From a virus, in the IMG/VR virus record IMGVR_UViG_3300032092_000107, positions 1 through 37,326 of that record: a DNA stretch of 37,326 nt. One strand, written 5' to 3'. The notes under the pieces were generated by a model, which was not told the origin of the DNA, searched no databases, and worked only from the letters and a program-made list of their open reading frames with translations. The position numbers and the translations under genes were made by a program. Positions 4,595 through 25,400 of this stretch are shown one piece after another. Each line of letters starts with the position of its first letter. Position 1 is the stretch's first letter.

Positions 4595-7573
4595 ATGGGT
4601 CAAATGAAAAGATACAGCCAGTTCCTAAAGGAACTTCCCTCAAAAACCGTAGTTTTAGCATTCGGGCGGTTCAATCCCCCAACAATTGGTCACGAACTGC
4701 TCATCAAAGCGGTCAAAAAGGTTGCAAAAACTCATAATGCAGACCACTCAATCTACGCCTCCAAGACTACCGATACCAAAAAGAACCCACTAACGGTAGA
4801 CAAGAAAGTCAAATACCTGAAGTTGATGTTCCCAGGAACCAACTTTGTAGCTGCTAATGATCAAGAAAGAACTTTCTTAGAGGCAGCTAAACACCTAAAC
4901 AAGAAGTATAAGAATCTCATAATGGTCGCAGGAAGCGATCGAGTCCAGGAATTTACTCGCCTGTTGAATACCTACAATGGAAAAGAGTTCAAATACGATA
5001 CAGTCGAAGTAGTTTCGGCTGGAGAGCGCGACCCAGATGCAGACGATGCTTCTGGTATGTCAGCCAGCAAAATGAGAGCGTTGGCTTCCAAGGGTGACTA
5101 CTCAGAATTTAAGAAGGGTCTTCCTTCTTCCATACGCGATATCGATGGTCGTCGTTTAATGAATGACGTTCGCCAGGGTATGGGACTTGATATGGTCAAG
5201 GAAGATATTATATTGGTTAAAGATACCCTACGTGAGCAGTATTTCCTTGGAGATATATTCAATGTTGGTGATATTGTAGAGTCCAGCGGAGTTAAGTATG
5301 AGATCGTCAAACGTGGATCTAATCATCTGCTGCTCAAAGAAGAATCTGGTAAACTTGTTTCTAAATGGATCCAAGACGTAAATATTGCTGAAGATGTACA
5401 ACCTGGATATGCACCCAAAGAAATTTCTTTCGATGGATATACCACGAAAAACTTTCATCACCATGAAGATGCGGTAAAAGCATTTCAGGATACTATATCT
5501 AGATTCGGTAGCACTCACAGAGAGATCGTAAAGACAGCGTTGACTGCAACTGATAAATATATGCAGTTAAACGATATGCATATAGCCAGCGGAGAAGCTC
5601 CAACTGGTGAAGAAATAAAACAGTGGATTGAGTCACACGGTGTTGCAAAACAGGCACTAGATAATATCGGAGAATTTTTACACCACGAAGATTACTGGCA
5701 TCAGCATCGCCATGAGTTAGAAATAATGCTGAATCAATATAAAGATAAAGGTGCAGAATCTGTGGCAGAGGAAACTATGAAGACAGAACCAAAAAGTTAT
5801 AAGGATTTTGTAAGCGATCTTAGAACAGATATAGAAGATCCATTTACAAACACGCCTGTTCAAGATCAACCAGAAACTGGTTTAGTTGGTCACACTCTTC
5901 ACAGTGAGCCACTTGACACTTACATGCGCCACAGAAAAGTTAAGTATCAACTTGGTGAGGGTGTCCATCCTGCTATAGGATATTCTAATCCGGATAGAAC
6001 TGTAAAAAAAGGTCCAGAATCAAACCCATTTAGAAAACAAAAAACTGCTGCAGACATTGAGAAAATTAAGAAGGCTAAGGCAGATGATGCTAAGAAATCT
6101 GCTAAAGCGCAAGGTGGGATATACAAAAAACAAAGTAATACACAGAGAAATCAAACAGTTAAAGGATATATGGATCTGCTAAAACAGATCGGTGAATCCA
6201 GCAGTAAACTTAGCAGTCAAAGAGAAACTTCAACTCCAGTTTATGATGCGCATATCAAAGGTAACTCTGATTACTCATCTATTGTTAAGAAACATGGTGC
6301 CTTTAAAACAAGAGAAATTATTCACGGTCTTTCAAAAGAAAGAGATTCTCTGCGTAAACATTCTGGCGAGTGGGCAGGTCCTGCTCATGTAAGAAATCAT
6401 GACTTTGCTATTCGCGGATTGAAAAAAGCAATTGGTGAAGAAGTAGAACTTGACGAATCGCACGTAGAGTTTAGAATCGATCATCGTCAGAAAGTTGCTC
6501 CTGGTCATGAAAAAACATTTAAGGATCATGACGCTAAAGTTTCAGAAATAAGCGACAAAGCAACATATGTAAAAGTTCCTGCTGATAAAGCAAATTCGTT
6601 TAAAGCAGCAATGAAGTCTAAACATAATACGCACTTAGAACTTGCCGAAGAAACATCGCCAATGATTAAACCACCAAGCAACAGATTTGATGATAAGAAA
6701 TCTGCATTCGCTCATGCCAAAGAGCATGGTGGTAAAGTATATAAACGTGAATATGTTAATCCAAGAACAGGTACAAAGCAAACGCATTTTGTAGTTAAAG
6801 AAAGTTACGACGAAATTCAATCAGCTGATTACAAAACTGATTCTAAAGGTAAAAAATACGCTGCTCGCCACATAGTATTTAAGAACGGCGAAGAAGAAAG
6901 TGACGAAGAAAAAGCAAAACATCAGCGCGAGCAAATCGAACTTGAAGAAAAGAAAAGAATTAAAGAAACTCCAGTTAAAGATGATTCTGCTCAGTTAGGT
7001 GATGAGGAAGATAAAGGAAATGATGCATTCTTTGAAGAGGAAGAGTTTGATATAGAAGATATGTCTGATGATGAGCTGGACAAGATGGCTGGCGAAATCG
7101 AAGATGAAGACGACATTATGGATGAATACGAAGACGATGAGTTTTCCATTGTTGACGATGAAACTGGTGAAGAACTGCCAGAAGATGAAGACGAAAAAGA
7201 AATCAAAGAGGCTGCTCTATATGAAGTTCTTTCTCGCATGGAAAGAATGAGAGCTAAGGCAAGAATGCGTCGCACCAAAGCAAAACGTGAGCGTGCTACA
7301 AAAATCGCACTAAAGCGTTACTCATCAAATCCAACTATCAATAAGAGATCACGTCGTCTAGCTATCAAACTTATGAAGAAAAGATTGCTTCGTGGTCGGG
7401 ATCCATCAAAAATTTCTGTTGGCGAGAAGGAAAGAATTGAACGTGTTATTGAGAAAAGAAAAAAGATAATTGGACGTTTGGCTATGCGTCTTGCACCACG
7501 TGTTCGTAAAATAGAGAAGGCTAGATTATCTCATACAAAGTTTACACAAGGAGCGCCAAATGTTGCATTTTAA
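4595..7573 (+). CDS. Large protein with N-terminal nucleotidyltransferase (HxGH-like) domain
   Basis: 992 aa. Residues about 16-190 form a cytidylyl/NMN-adenylyltransferase-type domain: the nucleotide-binding GRFNPPTIGH (24-33) is an HxGH-type motif, with GSDRVQEF near residue 110 and SASKMRALA near 156 as the C-terminal ligand motif. The rest is a mosaic of charged linkers with short recurrent EEVEL-type motifs, a long acidic run (about residues 795-872) and a strongly basic Lys/Arg tail (about 880-985). The length, linkers and place among virion genes suggest a virion-internal or scaffold protein carrying an enzyme head. Substrate is unknown; NMN/NAD or a sugar/choline nucleotide are options. 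ATG 4604 is an alternative start. The stop overlaps the next gene. Confidence 0.7.
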   Translation: MGQMKRYSQFLKELPSKTVVLAFGRFNPPTIGHELLIKAVKKVAKTHNADHSIYASKTTDTKKNPLTVDKKVKYLKLMFPGTNFVAANDQERTFLEAAKHLNKKYKNLIMVAGSDRVQEFTRLLNTYNGKEFKYDTVEVVSAGERDPDADDASGMSASKMRALASKGDYSEFKKGLPSSIRDIDGRRLMNDVRQGMGLDMVKEDIILVKDTLREQYFLGDIFNVGDIVESSGVKYEIVKRGSNHLLLKEESGKLVSKWIQDVNIAEDVQPGYAPKEISFDGYTTKNFHHHEDAVKAFQDTISRFGSTHREIVKTALTATDKYMQLNDMHIASGEAPTGEEIKQWIESHGVAKQALDNIGEFLHHEDYWHQHRHELEIMLNQYKDKGAESVAEETMKTEPKSYKDFVSDLRTDIEDPFTNTPVQDQPETGLVGHTLHSEPLDTYMRHRKVKYQLGEGVHPAIGYSNPDRTVKKGPESNPFRKQKTAADIEKIKKAKADDAKKSAKAQGGIYKKQSNTQRNQTVKGYMDLLKQIGESSSKLSSQRETSTPVYDAHIKGNSDYSSIVKKHGAFKTREIIHGLSKERDSLRKHSGEWAGPAHVRNHDFAIRGLKKAIGEEVELDESHVEFRIDHRQKVAPGHEKTFKDHDAKVSEISDKATYVKVPADKANSFKAAMKSKHNTHLELAEETSPMIKPPSNRFDDKKSAFAHAKEHGGKVYKREYVNPRTGTKQTHFVVKESYDEIQSADYKTDSKGKKYAARHIVFKNGEEESDEEKAKHQREQIELEEKKRIKETPVKDDSAQLGDEEDKGNDAFFEEEEFDIEDMSDDELDKMAGEIEDEDDIMDEYEDDEFSIVDDETGEELPEDEDEKEIKEAALYEVLSRMERMRAKARMRRTKAKRERATKIALKRYSSNPTINKRSRRLAIKLMKKRLLRGRDPSKISVGEKERIERVIEKRKKIIGRLAMRLAPRVRKIEKARLSHTKFTQGAPNVAF

Positions 7574-8524: not shown

Positions 8525-10309
8525 ATGAAAAAGTTCTTATCTTTTCAAAAAGAATTCAATGAATCTTCTGCTTATGGTAGAATTAGCTCTAGATTTAAAA
8601 CACTATCTGGTCGTTCATTAGATGCAGCTGCAAAAGAGCATGGTGACGAGGCTAAAAAACTTCAAAAAGAAATAGAAGCGCAACAAAAAGAAATAGATCG
8701 TCGTAAGGCTGCAATGAAACAGGAAGAAGTTCATATTTCTGAGGCTACTGTAAAAACCCAAAAATATTCATGGGGAACTATGAAGACTGTGCATCATGGT
8801 TCTGACTTCTCTATTCCTTTACATCCAGAACACCACCAAGCAATCGCTAAACTAAAAGACGAACAAGAACATAAGTTTAAAGATGAGACTGGTCGTCATT
8901 GGACTGCTCGTCGCAAAGGCGATGAAGTTCATTTCCAGGGGGCTAATAATGGTCGTTCTACTAAAGTCAAACACTCTGATCTAAAAGAAGAAGTTGAGCA
9001 AGTCGAAGAAAAGATGGATATGGCTAAAGCAAAGATGGGTGATGTTATCAAAGATTTTCAAAAGTCAGATGCTCCACAATTCGCAGGTAAAAGCAAAGAA
9101 AAGCGTCGTGAAATGGCAATTGCTGCTAAACTTGGAGCAGAACGTGACATGAAAGAGGATACTAACAAGGACGGAAAAACCATGCTTAGATTTAAAGATA
9201 TTGCAGAACAGTTAAAAGGTAAACAGCATAAAATTGACGTAGATAAAGACGGAAAGATCGAAGCCGAAGATCTGGCCAAGCTGCGTGCTAAAAAAATGAA
9301 AGAAGAACTGGAACTAGATGAGTTGAATAAATCTACTCTTGCTTCATATGCTAAGAAAGCATCAAAAGATGCACGCATTAAAAGTATGGTTTCAAAAGAC
9401 CTGGAACACAGAAGCGAAACATCTAGAAAAGATTCCAATAAAACATCTTTTTCTAATGCTGCAACTGATTGGAAAAAGAAAGCGTGGAAACGTGAAGCTG
9501 GTGTAAACAAAGCAGTTGATCGTTTAACTAAAGAAGAAGTAGCTAAAGCTACTGGTGATTTAAAAGATGCTTGCTGGAAAGGTTATACCGCAGTTGGCAT
9601 GAAGATGAAGAACGGCAAGAAAGTTCCTAACTGTGTTCCAGTTAAGGAAGGTGTCTTTGGTGCACTGGCAGGTGGTGTTCTTGGTGGTTTAGCTGGTGGA
9701 CCATTGGGTGCTGCAGCAGGTGCTTATCTTGGACACAAGGCACAACAAGCTGGTAACAATGCAAAAGAAGTTAATAAAAAACTTAAGAAAGAAGAAGTTG
9801 AGCAGATTGATGAATTAAGTTTTAATACTCTGGCTAGCTACGCATCAAAGGTTGATCAAAAAGATAAACAGCCACTATCAAAGAAACGTCAAGCTGGATA
9901 TAATTCTGCTGTAGAACGTATGTCAAAAGCAGCACAGACAGCTGATTTGAAAAAGTGGGGTAAAATTTCAGATTCAGTAGAATACAATTTCGACAACGAA
10001 GGAAACCTTATGCCAAATCCAGTATCATTTAAACAATTTTTAGGTCAGTTAGATGAGATCAAGATGGCTGATCTACCTTCACGTAAAGTATCTGGACGTG
10101 GTTATGGTACGGAATATTATAAGAAAGAAGCGGAAAAAGATAAAAGTGGATATGATGACGAGAAGAAAGAAAAGTCAGAAGTGAAGCGTGGTCGTGGTCG
10201 CCCAGTAGGATCTACTTCTGGCGCAAGACAAAAAGGTTCAACAACTGGGAAGAAACGTAGTGGTGTAGAAATGACTGGCTACCCATTACACCTTCCAAAT
10301 AAAAACTAA
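8525..10309 (+). CDS. Modular basic protein with EF-hand, glycine zipper and AT-hook
   Basis: 594 aa. Visible modules: an N-terminal coiled coil (about 45-75); an EF-hand-like loop DVDKDGKIEAED (about 238-249) preceded by a weaker DTNKDGK loop; a Cys module DLKDACWKGYTAVGMKMK (about 345-375); a glycine-zipper segment GGVLGGLAGGPLGAAAG (about 383-400) that may insert in a membrane; and a C-terminal AT-hook RGRGRPVGS (about 557-565) in a basic tail. Two copies of an (E)EL..L(D)ELN/S..TLASYA motif occur near residues 260 and 425. It starts one base after the dps stop. It may be an internal virion protein delivered with DNA, which is inference. Confidence 0.65.
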   Translation: MKKFLSFQKEFNESSAYGRISSRFKTLSGRSLDAAAKEHGDEAKKLQKEIEAQQKEIDRRKAAMKQEEVHISEATVKTQKYSWGTMKTVHHGSDFSIPLHPEHHQAIAKLKDEQEHKFKDETGRHWTARRKGDEVHFQGANNGRSTKVKHSDLKEEVEQVEEKMDMAKAKMGDVIKDFQKSDAPQFAGKSKEKRREMAIAAKLGAERDMKEDTNKDGKTMLRFKDIAEQLKGKQHKIDVDKDGKIEAEDLAKLRAKKMKEELELDELNKSTLASYAKKASKDARIKSMVSKDLEHRSETSRKDSNKTSFSNAATDWKKKAWKREAGVNKAVDRLTKEEVAKATGDLKDACWKGYTAVGMKMKNGKKVPNCVPVKEGVFGALAGGVLGGLAGGPLGAAAGAYLGHKAQQAGNNAKEVNKKLKKEEVEQIDELSFNTLASYASKVDQKDKQPLSKKRQAGYNSAVERMSKAAQTADLKKWGKISDSVEYNFDNEGNLMPNPVSFKQFLGQLDEIKMADLPSRKVSGRGYGTEYYKKEAEKDKSGYDDEKKEKSEVKRGRGRPVGSTSGARQKGSTTGKKRSGVEMTGYPLHLPNKN

Positions 10310-17840: not shown

Positions 17841-18823
17841 AGACCAGTCTAAAACTAACAGACGAAAGAAATTACTTTAAACCATTTGAGTATGCTTGGG
17901 CATATGATGCATGGTTAAAGCATGAGCAAGCGCATTGGTTACATACAGAAGTGCCAATGGCAGAAGACGTGAAAGATTGGAAAAAGAAATTAACTAAAGA
18001 AGAAAAACATTTTTTAACAAACATCTTCCGTTTCTTTACGCAAGGTGACATTGACGTTGCTGGTGGCTATGTGAAGAACTATCTTCCATATTTTCCACAA
18101 CCAGAAATTCGTATGATGCTTATGGGATTTGCTGCACGTGAAGCATTACACATTGCTGCATACTCTCACTTGATTGAAACTCTCGGAATGCCAGAATCAA
18201 CTTATAATGAATTCCTTGAATATCAAGAAATGAAGGATAAGCACGACTATGTTTTGGATATTTCTGCCAAGAATACAACAAAGGAAAACACTGCTACGCA
18301 CATTGCGGTCTTCTCTGCTTTTACGGAAGGAATGCAGTTGTTTAGCTCTTTCATTATGCTTCTTAATTTTCCCCGTCATGGTATTATGAAAGGTATGGGT
18401 CAAATTGTTACCTGGTCTATCGTTGATGAAACTATGCACGCTGAAAATATGATGCGTTTGTTTAAAGAGTTTATCAAAGAGAACCCAGAAATTTGGAATG
18501 ATTCTTTGAAGAGCAAGATCTATAGCATTGCTGAGAAGATGGTTGATCTTGAAGATAAGTTTATTGACCTATCATTCGCTAACGAGCCAATGAGAAATCT
18601 GACTGCTGAAGATGTAAAGAAATATATTCGCTACATTGCGGATCGTCGTCTTATCGGTCTGGGTATGAAAGGTATCTTCAAAGTTAAGAAGAACCCACTA
18701 CCATGGGTAGAGGAAATGATTAATGCACCAGTACATGGTAACTTTTTTGAGAATCGTGTTACTGACTATGCTAAAGGTGCTTTGTCTGGCACATGGGAAG
18801 ATGTTTGGGCTAAAGCAGCATAA
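17837..18823 (+). CDS. nrdB: Ribonucleotide reductase class I beta chain
   Basis: 328 aa. It carries the di-iron/tyrosyl-radical cofactor. Ligands can be read as D44, E102, H105, E164, E198 and H201, with the radical tyrosine Y109 in REALHIAAYSH (the E-x2-H-x3-Y pattern of E. coli E115, H118, Y122). The second helix pair is TEGMQLF and DETMHAENMM. It partners NrdA. The stop shares one base with the next ATG. Confidence 0.95.
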   Translation: MKTSLKLTDERNYFKPFEYAWAYDAWLKHEQAHWLHTEVPMAEDVKDWKKKLTKEEKHFLTNIFRFFTQGDIDVAGGYVKNYLPYFPQPEIRMMLMGFAAREALHIAAYSHLIETLGMPESTYNEFLEYQEMKDKHDYVLDISAKNTTKENTATHIAVFSAFTEGMQLFSSFIMLLNFPRHGIMKGMGQIVTWSIVDETMHAENMMRLFKEFIKENPEIWNDSLKSKIYSIAEKMVDLEDKFIDLSFANEPMRNLTAEDVKKYIRYIADRRLIGLGMKGIFKVKKNPLPWVEEMINAPVHGNFFENRVTDYAKGALSGTWEDVWAKAA

Positions 18824-19458
18824 TGTCCCATATTGTTGCTAATCTACCACCTGTAAAATGTTTTGTTCGCAGAGAGTTTCTCTATGATTTTGAAAAAGGT
18901 CATGGAGAACTCGAACCCTGCTGGTGGATAAGTATTAAGTCTTTAAGAGGACAAGCATTTCGCATAGAAGCATATTTAAATAACTATGGCGCTTTATATG
19001 ATAAGTTGCCATTACATGCATTTTGTTGGAAACCAATTGATGGTGAGCCGTTACCGTTAGATTTTTTACAGCTGTGGGATTGTCTTTCGTATGATGTTAC
19101 AGTATTAAAGAAAGCGCAACTCCAATCAATGCGTTGTAAAATAAAACTAAAAAATGGAGAATGGTTATATGGCGAGTATCTATTTACTGTTGACTCTGCT
19201 CATCCTGATTTTAATATTCTTGATACTGGATTTGCTGAAGATATCGAAGATCACAAATCTTATAATTTTATTCGCTGCGACAATGGGCAGTTTGCTGCTC
19301 AGCCAAACAATCGTATTATTATCTGTGAGCCATCATCTAATCCTCGGGAACTGAAGATGCCAGATTTTAAGGTAGCAACAAAACGCTGGTCTGTAGAAAC
19401 AGATCCTAAATGGGCATTGGGAGATACTAATACCATAATGTATGAGGAAACGAAATGA
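18823..19458 (+). CDS. Conserved phage protein of the nrd run
   Basis: 211 aa. The block CWWISIKSLRGQAFRIEAYL followed by NNYGALYDKLPLHAFCW is well conserved in marine phages, where the gene often sits near nucleotide-metabolism genes. Predominantly beta with conserved Trp and Cys residues. The function is not known. It is translationally coupled to nrdB (TAATG) and to the next gene (ATGA), so it is co-expressed with the reductase. Confidence 0.6.
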   Translation: MSHIVANLPPVKCFVRREFLYDFEKGHGELEPCWWISIKSLRGQAFRIEAYLNNYGALYDKLPLHAFCWKPIDGEPLPLDFLQLWDCLSYDVTVLKKAQLQSMRCKIKLKNGEWLYGEYLFTVDSAHPDFNILDTGFAEDIEDHKSYNFIRCDNGQFAAQPNNRIIICEPSSNPRELKMPDFKVATKRWSVETDPKWALGDTNTIMYEETK

Positions 19459-23373: not shown

Positions 23374-23470
23374 TCTATTTGATCTCTACGTTAAATTCTT
23401 TTTGCAACTTTGGTTTGCTCCATACCAGGTGATAAAAAATGCATCGATACAAAACAATATTTGTAAGTGA
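23366..23470 (+). CDS. Possible 34-aa hydrophobic peptide
   Basis: MTDLFDLYVKFFLQLWFAPY begins it, an amphipathic aromatic helix. The start overlaps the end of the previous gene and the reading frame runs 32 bases into the metallophosphoesterase gene. Weak ribosome-binding site. It may be a coupling ORF rather than a functional protein. Confidence 0.35.
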   Translation: MTDLFDLYVKFFLQLWFAPYQVIKNASIQNNICK

Positions 23471-24266
23471 TGTTCATCTTGGTACTAAAGATTGCAAAGC
23501 AGAACTTCTCAATAACTTTCTAAAAAACAATACCTGCGAGAAACTGTATCTCGTAGGTGATATTATTGATGGTTGGAAAGTGCAGCGTAATAAGTTACGC
23601 TGGAAACAGTCACATAGTAATGTATTAAGAAGAATACTGGGTTTCTCCAAAAGAGGAACCCAAGTCATTTATGTGGCAGGAAATCACGATGAATTCTTAC
23701 GGACTTTTATTCCTTTCGGAATTGGTCTTGGCAACATTACCATCTGCAATCATATTGAGCACGTGGGAGTGGATGGAAAGCATTATCTTGTTGTACATGG
23801 CGATATGTTTGATGGAATTACTCGCCTCCATAAGTGGTTATCTATTCTAGGTGATGGTGCCTACGATTTTGTATTGAATTTAAACTCTAAGTACAACTGG
23901 ATTCGTCACAAGATGGGGTTTGGATATTGGTCTTTAAGCCAGTACCTTAAACACAAAGTTAAGCGAGCAGTTGATTTTATGTTTCAGTTTGAGAAAAACA
24001 TAGCATCTTACTGTAAAAGAAAAGGATATGATGGCGTTATCTGTGGGCATATACACCACGCAGAAATTAAAGAAATAGATGGAGTGATTTATATGAATGA
24101 TGGAGACTGGGTTGAATCCTGCACCGCATTAGTTGAACATCATAATGGTAAATGGGAAATAATTCATTGGGGAGAAATAATAAATGTGGATGCTGATAAT
24201 AGTGGCAGTACACATAAACAATCCAAACGACATACCAGGAAGAGTGGAACTGAGATTCAACAGTGA
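23439..24266 (+). CDS. plcP: PlcP-like metallophosphoesterase (phospholipase C type)
   Basis: 275 aa. A complete calcineurin-like site is visible: D11-x-H13 (SDVHLG), D41 (GDIIDGW), N82-H83 (GNHDE), H120 (VHGD), H204 and H206 (GHIHH). The flanking sequence is not that of LpxH: DVHLGTKDCKAELL at the front and DGDWVESCTALVEH near the end are hallmarks of PlcP, the enzyme that alphaproteobacteria and marine bacteria use to cut phospholipid headgroups to diacylglycerol under phosphate starvation. Databases usually call it UDP-2,3-diacylglucosamine pyrophosphatase-like. The glycosyltransferase that follows is the usual operon partner. No obvious Pho box is seen upstream. Confidence 0.8.
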   Translation: MHRYKTIFVSDVHLGTKDCKAELLNNFLKNNTCEKLYLVGDIIDGWKVQRNKLRWKQSHSNVLRRILGFSKRGTQVIYVAGNHDEFLRTFIPFGIGLGNITICNHIEHVGVDGKHYLVVHGDMFDGITRLHKWLSILGDGAYDFVLNLNSKYNWIRHKMGFGYWSLSQYLKHKVKRAVDFMFQFEKNIASYCKRKGYDGVICGHIHHAEIKEIDGVIYMNDGDWVESCTALVEHHNGKWEIIHWGEIINVDADNSGSTHKQSKRHTRKSGTEIQQ

Positions 24267-24354
24267 ACAACAGTGCATGCAAGCGCTAGATAGTATGACA
24301 TATTGGTTAAAGTTTCAATCCTTTAAAGTGACTGCACAATGCAAAAAATCTTAA
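24184..24354 (+). CDS. 56-aa secreted-type protein overlapping plcP and agt
   Basis: Runs in another frame across the plcP/agt junction. GGGGAG lies 9 bases before the ATG. Hydrophobic N-terminus (MWMLIIVAVHI), then NNPNDIPGRVELRF, and cysteines at 31 and 53. The same 22-residue cysteine spacing occurs in the 58-aa product at 36251. Resembles tiny proteins of T4-like cyanophages. Function unknown. Confidence 0.6.
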   Translation: MWMLIIVAVHINNPNDIPGRVELRFNSEQQCMQALDSMTYWLKFQSFKVTAQCKKS

Positions 24355-25334
24355 TTATTACAGATGCCTGGGAACCACAAGTTAATGGAGTGGTTCGTAC
24401 ATATCAGAATACAATAAAAGAATTACATAGACTTGGGCATGAAGTTCAAGTTATTCATCCTTATTGTGATGGATTCAAAAGAGTTAAACTCCCAGCATAT
24501 CCAGAAATTGAGTTAGTAAAAAACCCTTGGATAGTAAAACAAAAAATTCTCGATGCTTTGCTCGACGGATGGAAGATACACATAGCCACTGAAGGAACTC
24601 TTGGGATTTATGCAAGATTTATATTGAGGAAAGATGAGTTTACTACATGTTATCATACTCAATTTCCAGAATTTATAGAGAGTAGAACAAAAATACCAGC
24701 TTGGGTATTTTATCCATTTTACAGATGGTTTCACAATTCTGCTAGATCAATGATGGTACCAACTAAACCTATGGCTCAATTTTTACAACAGAAAGGTTTC
24801 ACTTCTGTATCAATTTGGACAAGAGGTGTTGATCCTGAATTATTTAATCCCAAAAGAAAAACTAAAACTGAAGAACAACCATATATTCTTTGCGTATCTA
24901 GAGTATCACATGAAAAGGGATTAGATGATTTTTGTAAGTTAAACTATCCAAGAAAAGTATTAGTTGGTGATGGACCATATCTGGAAACTTTAAAGAAAAG
25001 ATATCCAACAGTAGAGTTTCCTGGCAAGAAAGAAGGTATTGAATTGGCAGAGTGGTATGCTAATGCAGAAGCATTTGTATTTCCAAGTAAGACAGATACA
25101 TTTGGTATTGTAATTTTGGAATCGTTAGCGTCAGGAACTCCAGTGGCAAGTTATTGGGAACCTGGACCAATAGAGACTATCGAACTCATGTACAATGGAA
25201 TGATGAGCGATAATTTAGAACACGCAGTTAAGGTAGCAACAGAATTAGTTAAGAGAGACGATGTTGTTGAATCCAGCAAAAAGTGGACATGGGAGGGTGC
25301 TACCAAGGCATTTTTAGAGAATATAAGTAAGTAA
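24339..25334 (+). CDS. agt: Agt-like GT4 diacylglycerol glycosyltransferase
   Basis: 331 aa, GT-B fold, GT4 family. N-terminal domain begins with TDAWEPQVNGVVRTYQNT, then CYHTQFPEFI; the C-terminal domain has CVSRVSHEKGLDDF, LVGDGPY and the nucleotide-sugar motif PSKTDTFGIVILESLASGTP. These match the SqdX/MgtA-like group to which Agt belongs. Agt adds glucose, galactose or glucuronate to diacylglycerol made by PlcP, giving glycolipids that replace phospholipids. It is probably a peripheral inner-membrane enzyme. The gene lies 72 bases after plcP with a small overlapping ORF between, and a strong terminator follows. Confidence 0.8.
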   Translation: MQKILIITDAWEPQVNGVVRTYQNTIKELHRLGHEVQVIHPYCDGFKRVKLPAYPEIELVKNPWIVKQKILDALLDGWKIHIATEGTLGIYARFILRKDEFTTCYHTQFPEFIESRTKIPAWVFYPFYRWFHNSARSMMVPTKPMAQFLQQKGFTSVSIWTRGVDPELFNPKRKTKTEEQPYILCVSRVSHEKGLDDFCKLNYPRKVLVGDGPYLETLKKRYPTVEFPGKKEGIELAEWYANAEAFVFPSKTDTFGIVILESLASGTPVASYWEPGPIETIELMYNGMMSDNLEHAVKVATELVKRDDVVESSKKWTWEGATKAFLENISK

Positions 25335-25348
25335 CCGCTAACTAATAA

Positions 25349-25365
25349 CCCTACATTTTGTAGGG
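25349..25365 (+). terminator. CCCTACA/TGTAGGG hairpin after agt
   Basis: A 7-base perfect stem CCCTACA...TGTAGGG with a 3-base loop and no T-tract. It lies 10 bases upstream of the true terminator at 25375. The same CCCTAC/GTAGGG core recurs at 30051 and 33866, so it appears to be a repeated control or RNA-stability hairpin. Confidence 0.5.
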
Positions 25366-25374
25366 GTATCTCGA

Positions 25375-25400
25375 GACCCTCTACTGGAGAGGGTCTTTTT
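25375..25400 (+). terminator. Intrinsic terminator of the plcP-agt unit
   Basis: GACCCTCT (25375-25382) pairs perfectly with AGAGGGTC (25388-25395) across a 5-base loop, followed directly by TTTTT. This is a textbook Rho-independent terminator. Confidence 0.9.

Follow-up and report, generated by a model that had tools for sequence, protein, structure and literature searches.

We find that a bacteriophage contig carries a three-gene cassette that is predicted to remodel the lipids of the host membrane. The DNA analysed, referred to as the window, is the IMG/VR virus record IMGVR_UViG_3300032092_000107, a linear fragment of 37,326 bases. The cassette consists of a PlcP-type metallophosphoesterase gene (23439-24266, + strand, 275 aa), a small gene of 56 codons (24184-24354, + strand) and the gene for an Agt/GTcp-type GT4 glycosyltransferase (24339-25334, + strand, 331 aa), and it is closed by an intrinsic-terminator-like hairpin followed by a T tail (25373-25397, + strand; 10-pair stem, 5 G-C pairs). 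An earlier note, made from the sequence alone, had described the metallophosphoesterase, the glycosyltransferase and the terminator as a PlcP-Agt lipid-remodelling module that would release phosphate from host membranes. Our analysis confirms this observation and supports most of the interpretation. However, it is a three-gene cassette and not a pair, the window itself holds neither a pstS gene nor a Pho box, and in many relatives the partner of PlcP is a GT2 and not Agt.

Both large ORFs are intact, and the motifs DVHLGTKDCKAELL, GDWVESCTALVEH, DAWEPQVNGVVRT and TDTFGIVILES are all present. The arrangement is far more than chance, since at least 466 IMG/VR stretches encode relatives of the first protein, and both genes are under strong purifying selection. 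The median pairwise dN/dS is 0.03 for plcP over 97 pairs and 0.09 for agt over 56 pairs. It should be noted that many IMG/VR contigs are near-copies of one another and that several contigs appear in more than one search, and the counts of loci given below should be read with this in mind.

The first protein groups with PlcP and not with LpxH

The first protein matches PF00149 and has the calcineurin-like metal-binding motifs DxH, GD, GNHD, HGD and GHxH. The metal ligands D11, H13, D41, N82, H83, H120, H204 and H206 are invariant among 13 aligned phage sequences, relatives down to 39% identity. Against the two LpxH equivalog models, however, the protein scores only 46.7 and 35.1 bits, compared to cut-offs of 134 and 190.35 bits. 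Several bacterial genomes carry both a true LpxH over the cut-off and a second protein at 34-50 bits. These second copies are PlcP, and in two of the genomes they are found beside the Agt-type transferase. Hits in a plasmid collection supplied two PlcPs that appear to be the experimentally studied ones. One is an S. meliloti protein (45% identity) encoded beside the acyl-homoserine-lactone synthase and LuxR-type regulator genes, a neighbourhood that probably identifies it as SMc00171. The other is a P. aeruginosa protein (57% identity), whose neighbours seem to correspond to the region of PA3219 (PMC8528852). In an 88-row phylogenetic tree the window protein lies with these two inside the PlcP clade, whereas E. 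coli LpxH and seven further LpxH proteins split off with an SH-aLRT support of 100. Sequence searches of solved structures gave no match for this protein. The structure model is good in the core, the catalytic domain comprising about residues 1-246, while the tail (residues 247-275), which is overlapped by the small gene, is disordered. Among solved structures its fold is closest to LpxH, as expected for the superfamily.

In bacteria, the same two enzyme families are found in the same order and on the same strand in the PlcP-Agt (GTcp) lipid-remodelling operon of marine heterotrophs and Pseudomonas (SMc00171; PB7211_983/960; PA3219/PA3218) (PMC4796936, PMC8231724, PMC8528852). Of the 80 closest bacterial plcP loci, 65 have a GT4 relative in the locus, mostly directly downstream, as in PMC4796936. 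Two plasmid records of such regions are of note. P. aeruginosa plasmid pHPA0698-2 (NZ_CP137508.1) carries a chromosome-like block with plcP-agt1 and neighbouring phospholipid-transport (MlaD-family) genes, and a record titled S. meliloti plasmid pSymB (CP090106.1), which contains the AHL-synthase/plcP region, is 3.7 Mb long and looks like a mislabelled chromosome.

The second protein resembles Agt/GTcp glycosyltransferases

To analyze the second protein we made use of the residues named from mutation or docking in Pelagibacter GTcp (PMC8231724). Pelagibacter proteins from two of our loci match the published GTcp numbering at 14 of 14 positions with zero offset. Aligned to them, the window protein has all 14 residues, including the catalytic pair His104-Asp256 and the diacylglycerol contacts Arg163 and Trp320 (here H106, D253, R162 and W318). 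R188, K193, T254, F255, G256 and E261 of the window protein also equal the GTcp residues. The Asp in place of the usual GT4 Glu is the signature of the group. Phylogenetic analysis places the protein with Agt, GTcp and PA3218 and apart from the E. coli LPS and colanic-acid transferases, although the supporting branch has an SH-aLRT value of 90, not 95, and the E. coli outgroups are very long. Moreover, the protein is only about 40-45% identical to bacterial Agts, below the 46-58% range given for the GTcp group (PMC8231724). The structure model is a confident GT-B fold (pLDDT 92.4) whose nearest solved relatives are GT4 enzymes; searches by sequence recovered only distant GT4 structures.

Not all relatives have kept these residues. 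Five of 37 phage GT4 representatives have Glu where GTcp needs Asp256. Since the D256E exchange cost GTcp over 90% of its activity, this suggests a changed donor or acceptor. In a Pelagibacteraceae locus the Agt-like protein beside plcP has Cys in place of the catalytic His104. Finally, in four loci (L134, L140, L146 and L152) Agt-like GT4 genes are preceded by a much more distant (29-31%) metallophosphoesterase, and the one from L134 lacks the GDWVES motif, perhaps reflecting a second phosphoesterase-transferase pairing.

A conserved small gene overlaps both enzyme genes

The earlier note had overlooked the small gene at 24184-24354, which overlaps the 3' end of plcP by 83 nt and the 5' end of agt by 16 nt. 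A first survey found it conserved at the same place in 89 loci. We then compared 101 full-length ungapped copies, 62 of them non-redundant. Differences by codon position of its own frame are 300:119:581 in the first 60 nt, which mostly lie inside plcP, and 359:238:803 in the last 75 nt. Thus, this frame is constrained, even inside plcP, and it is the plcP tail that is relaxed. Searches with the small protein alone returned 92 loci, all of which have plcP directly upstream. The 90 loci with room downstream have either GT4 (53) or GT2 (37). The small protein has no match in Pfam, PHROGs or PADLOC, was not found beside the 80 bacterial plcP loci and gave no match in public phage isolates. Its short hydrophobic N-terminus and two invariant cysteines (C31 and C53) suggest that it may be a membrane-near accessory protein. 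Interestingly, in the Pelagibacter phage Mosig a 72-residue ORF (8701-8919 of the retrieved locus) overlaps the 3' end of a lone plcP; it is unrelated in sequence to the small gene of the window but sits in the same position.

The glycosyltransferase downstream of plcP is exchangeable

Among the loci found with PlcP alone, 70 have at least 1 kb of sequence downstream. Of these, 32 have GT4, 35 have an unrelated GT2 (PF00535) and 3 have neither, so that 67 of 70 plcP loci have one of the two transferases directly downstream. A reciprocal search with the GT2 returned 77 loci with room upstream, all of which have plcP. Twelve of 70 GT4 loci with room have no plcP directly upstream; in one locus of this kind (L148) plcP lies just downstream instead. 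No GT2 partner was found beside the 80 bacterial plcP loci. On a tree of 109 phage PlcPs the partner changes 20 times by parsimony, and at least 7 of these changes are forced by well-supported branches. Repeated replacement of one transferase family by another behind the same phospholipase is what is expected if the diacylglycerol product is the link.

A PstS-type gene lies near plcP in a subset of related phages

We next asked whether other phosphorus-related genes are found near the cassette. A PstS-type gene (PF12849) occurs in 7 of 34 searched phage records, and in 6 of these it lies within about 2.5 kb of plcP, three times directly upstream on the same strand. Over all viral-contig loci retrieved, 26 distinct plcP sequences have pstS in the locus, 25 of them within 2.7 kb. 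Of the 133 distinct sequences with room on both sides, 21 have it. The window and most cassette contigs, however, lack pstS, although contigs are fragments. phoH is common in the records but does not lie beside the cassette. Finally, no Pho box was found upstream of plcP in the window or in Mosig, as the best match was no better than in shuffled sequences.

A plcP without a neighbouring transferase or 56-codon gene is present in two Kyanoviridae, Pelagibacter phage Mosig EXVC030M and Synechococcus phage S-SRM01, in which it is annotated as LpxH ('UDP-2,3-diacylglucosamine hydrolase'). In Mosig it stands divergent from pstS.

Interpretation of the cassette

Based on homology, key residues, linkage and selection, we propose that PlcP cuts the phosphate-bearing head group off host phospholipids, leaving diacylglycerol in the inner membrane, and that the Agt-type enzyme puts a sugar from a UDP-sugar onto this diacylglycerol, so that the bilayer is rebuilt as glycolipid while phosphate is set free. 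The small protein would be a dedicated partner, most likely a membrane-near accessory or regulator, which is translated together with the two enzymes. The likely benefit is a continued phosphate supply, or phosphate sparing, in a phosphate-poor virocell once host gene expression is shut down, and in some relatives pstS beside the cassette would do the matching uptake job. The enzymatic activities, the glycolipid made and the benefit to the phage are all inferred, and we assign this reading a probability of roughly 0.82. If it is true, these viruses reroute phosphorus by dismantling and rebuilding the membrane of the host, and not only by boosting uptake. A more far-reaching possibility, which we consider about as likely as not, is that large aquatic T4-like phages carry a modular phosphorus-mining operon, (pstS)-plcP-small gene-GT4 or GT2, in which the phage-only small protein is an obligate partner that recruits or switches PlcP and the transferase at the membrane, so that host phospholipid is actively converted to glycolipid during infection.

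The pathway itself is known in bacteria. What differs in the phages is the overlapping small gene, the exchange of GT4 for GT2 in many relatives and the absence of a detectable Pho box. In six searches we found no paper describing phage plcP, although surveys list viral 'lpxH', which may in part be this gene, and the paper on Mosig does not discuss its copy.

Alternatively, the same chemistry could serve membrane remodelling itself rather than phosphate supply, by altering charge or curvature, blocking superinfection, hiding receptors or timing lysis. This remains possible but appears less likely. Changed membrane lipids affect phage attachment in Ruegeria (PMC9938194), glycolipids protect Pseudomonas against an antibiotic (PMC8528852) and most cassettes have no pstS beside them. 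On the other hand, independent pstS genes of at least two types lie beside plcP, either upstream or downstream, in about 25 distinct loci and in Mosig, which points to phosphorus, and bacterial plcP-agt is a phosphate-starvation system. It is more doubtful still that the transferases act on something other than diacylglycerol, such as a surface glycan, a protein or phage DNA, and that plcP is a neighbour with a separate role. The GT2 partners do resemble TIGR04283-type transferases with no known lipid substrate, and the GT4 loci without plcP directly upstream and the Glu-containing GT4 representatives mentioned above are in line with this view. However, it is at odds with the near-absolute linkage in reciprocal searches and with the repeated exchange of unrelated transferases behind the same plcP. 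Moreover, the DAG-contact residues H104, R163 and W320 of GTcp are kept in the window protein. The reading of the pair as an LpxH-type lipid A enzyme and an LPS core or capsule transferase that alter the host surface, which has in its favour only the annotation in Mosig and S-SRM01, the fold and weak hits to LpxH models, is very unlikely given the scores, the tree, the GNHD motif in place of the GNRD of E. coli LpxH, and the fact that the transferase does not group with E. coli WaaG, WaaB, WcaL, WcaI or WcaC. A role in anti-phage defence or conflict is likewise not supported, as there was no PADLOC match and the Pfam GT4-conflict hit is below cut-off.

The cassette is carried by large T4-like myoviruses

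The cassette is found on contigs with phage hallmark genes. The window carries virion structural genes, a T4-type primase and RNase H, both ribonucleotide reductase subunits, thymidylate synthase and six tRNAs. Cassette contigs of relatives are up to 436 kb long and carry a T4-type portal (7 of 31) and a terminase (7 of 31 over cut-off). Phage PlcP does not form a single clade, and well-supported branches force at least 4 changes between phage and bacterial labels. Thus, the gene moved more than once. A plcP without transferase from a Methylotenera MAG (4977-5744 of the retrieved locus) lies among phage-like small genes and falls in the phage clade; it is probably derived from a prophage or a misbinned phage piece. 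Finally, directly after the gene for the small subunit of ribonucleotide reductase the window encodes a protein (18823-19458) of a PHROG labelled ferredoxin / auxiliary metabolic gene.
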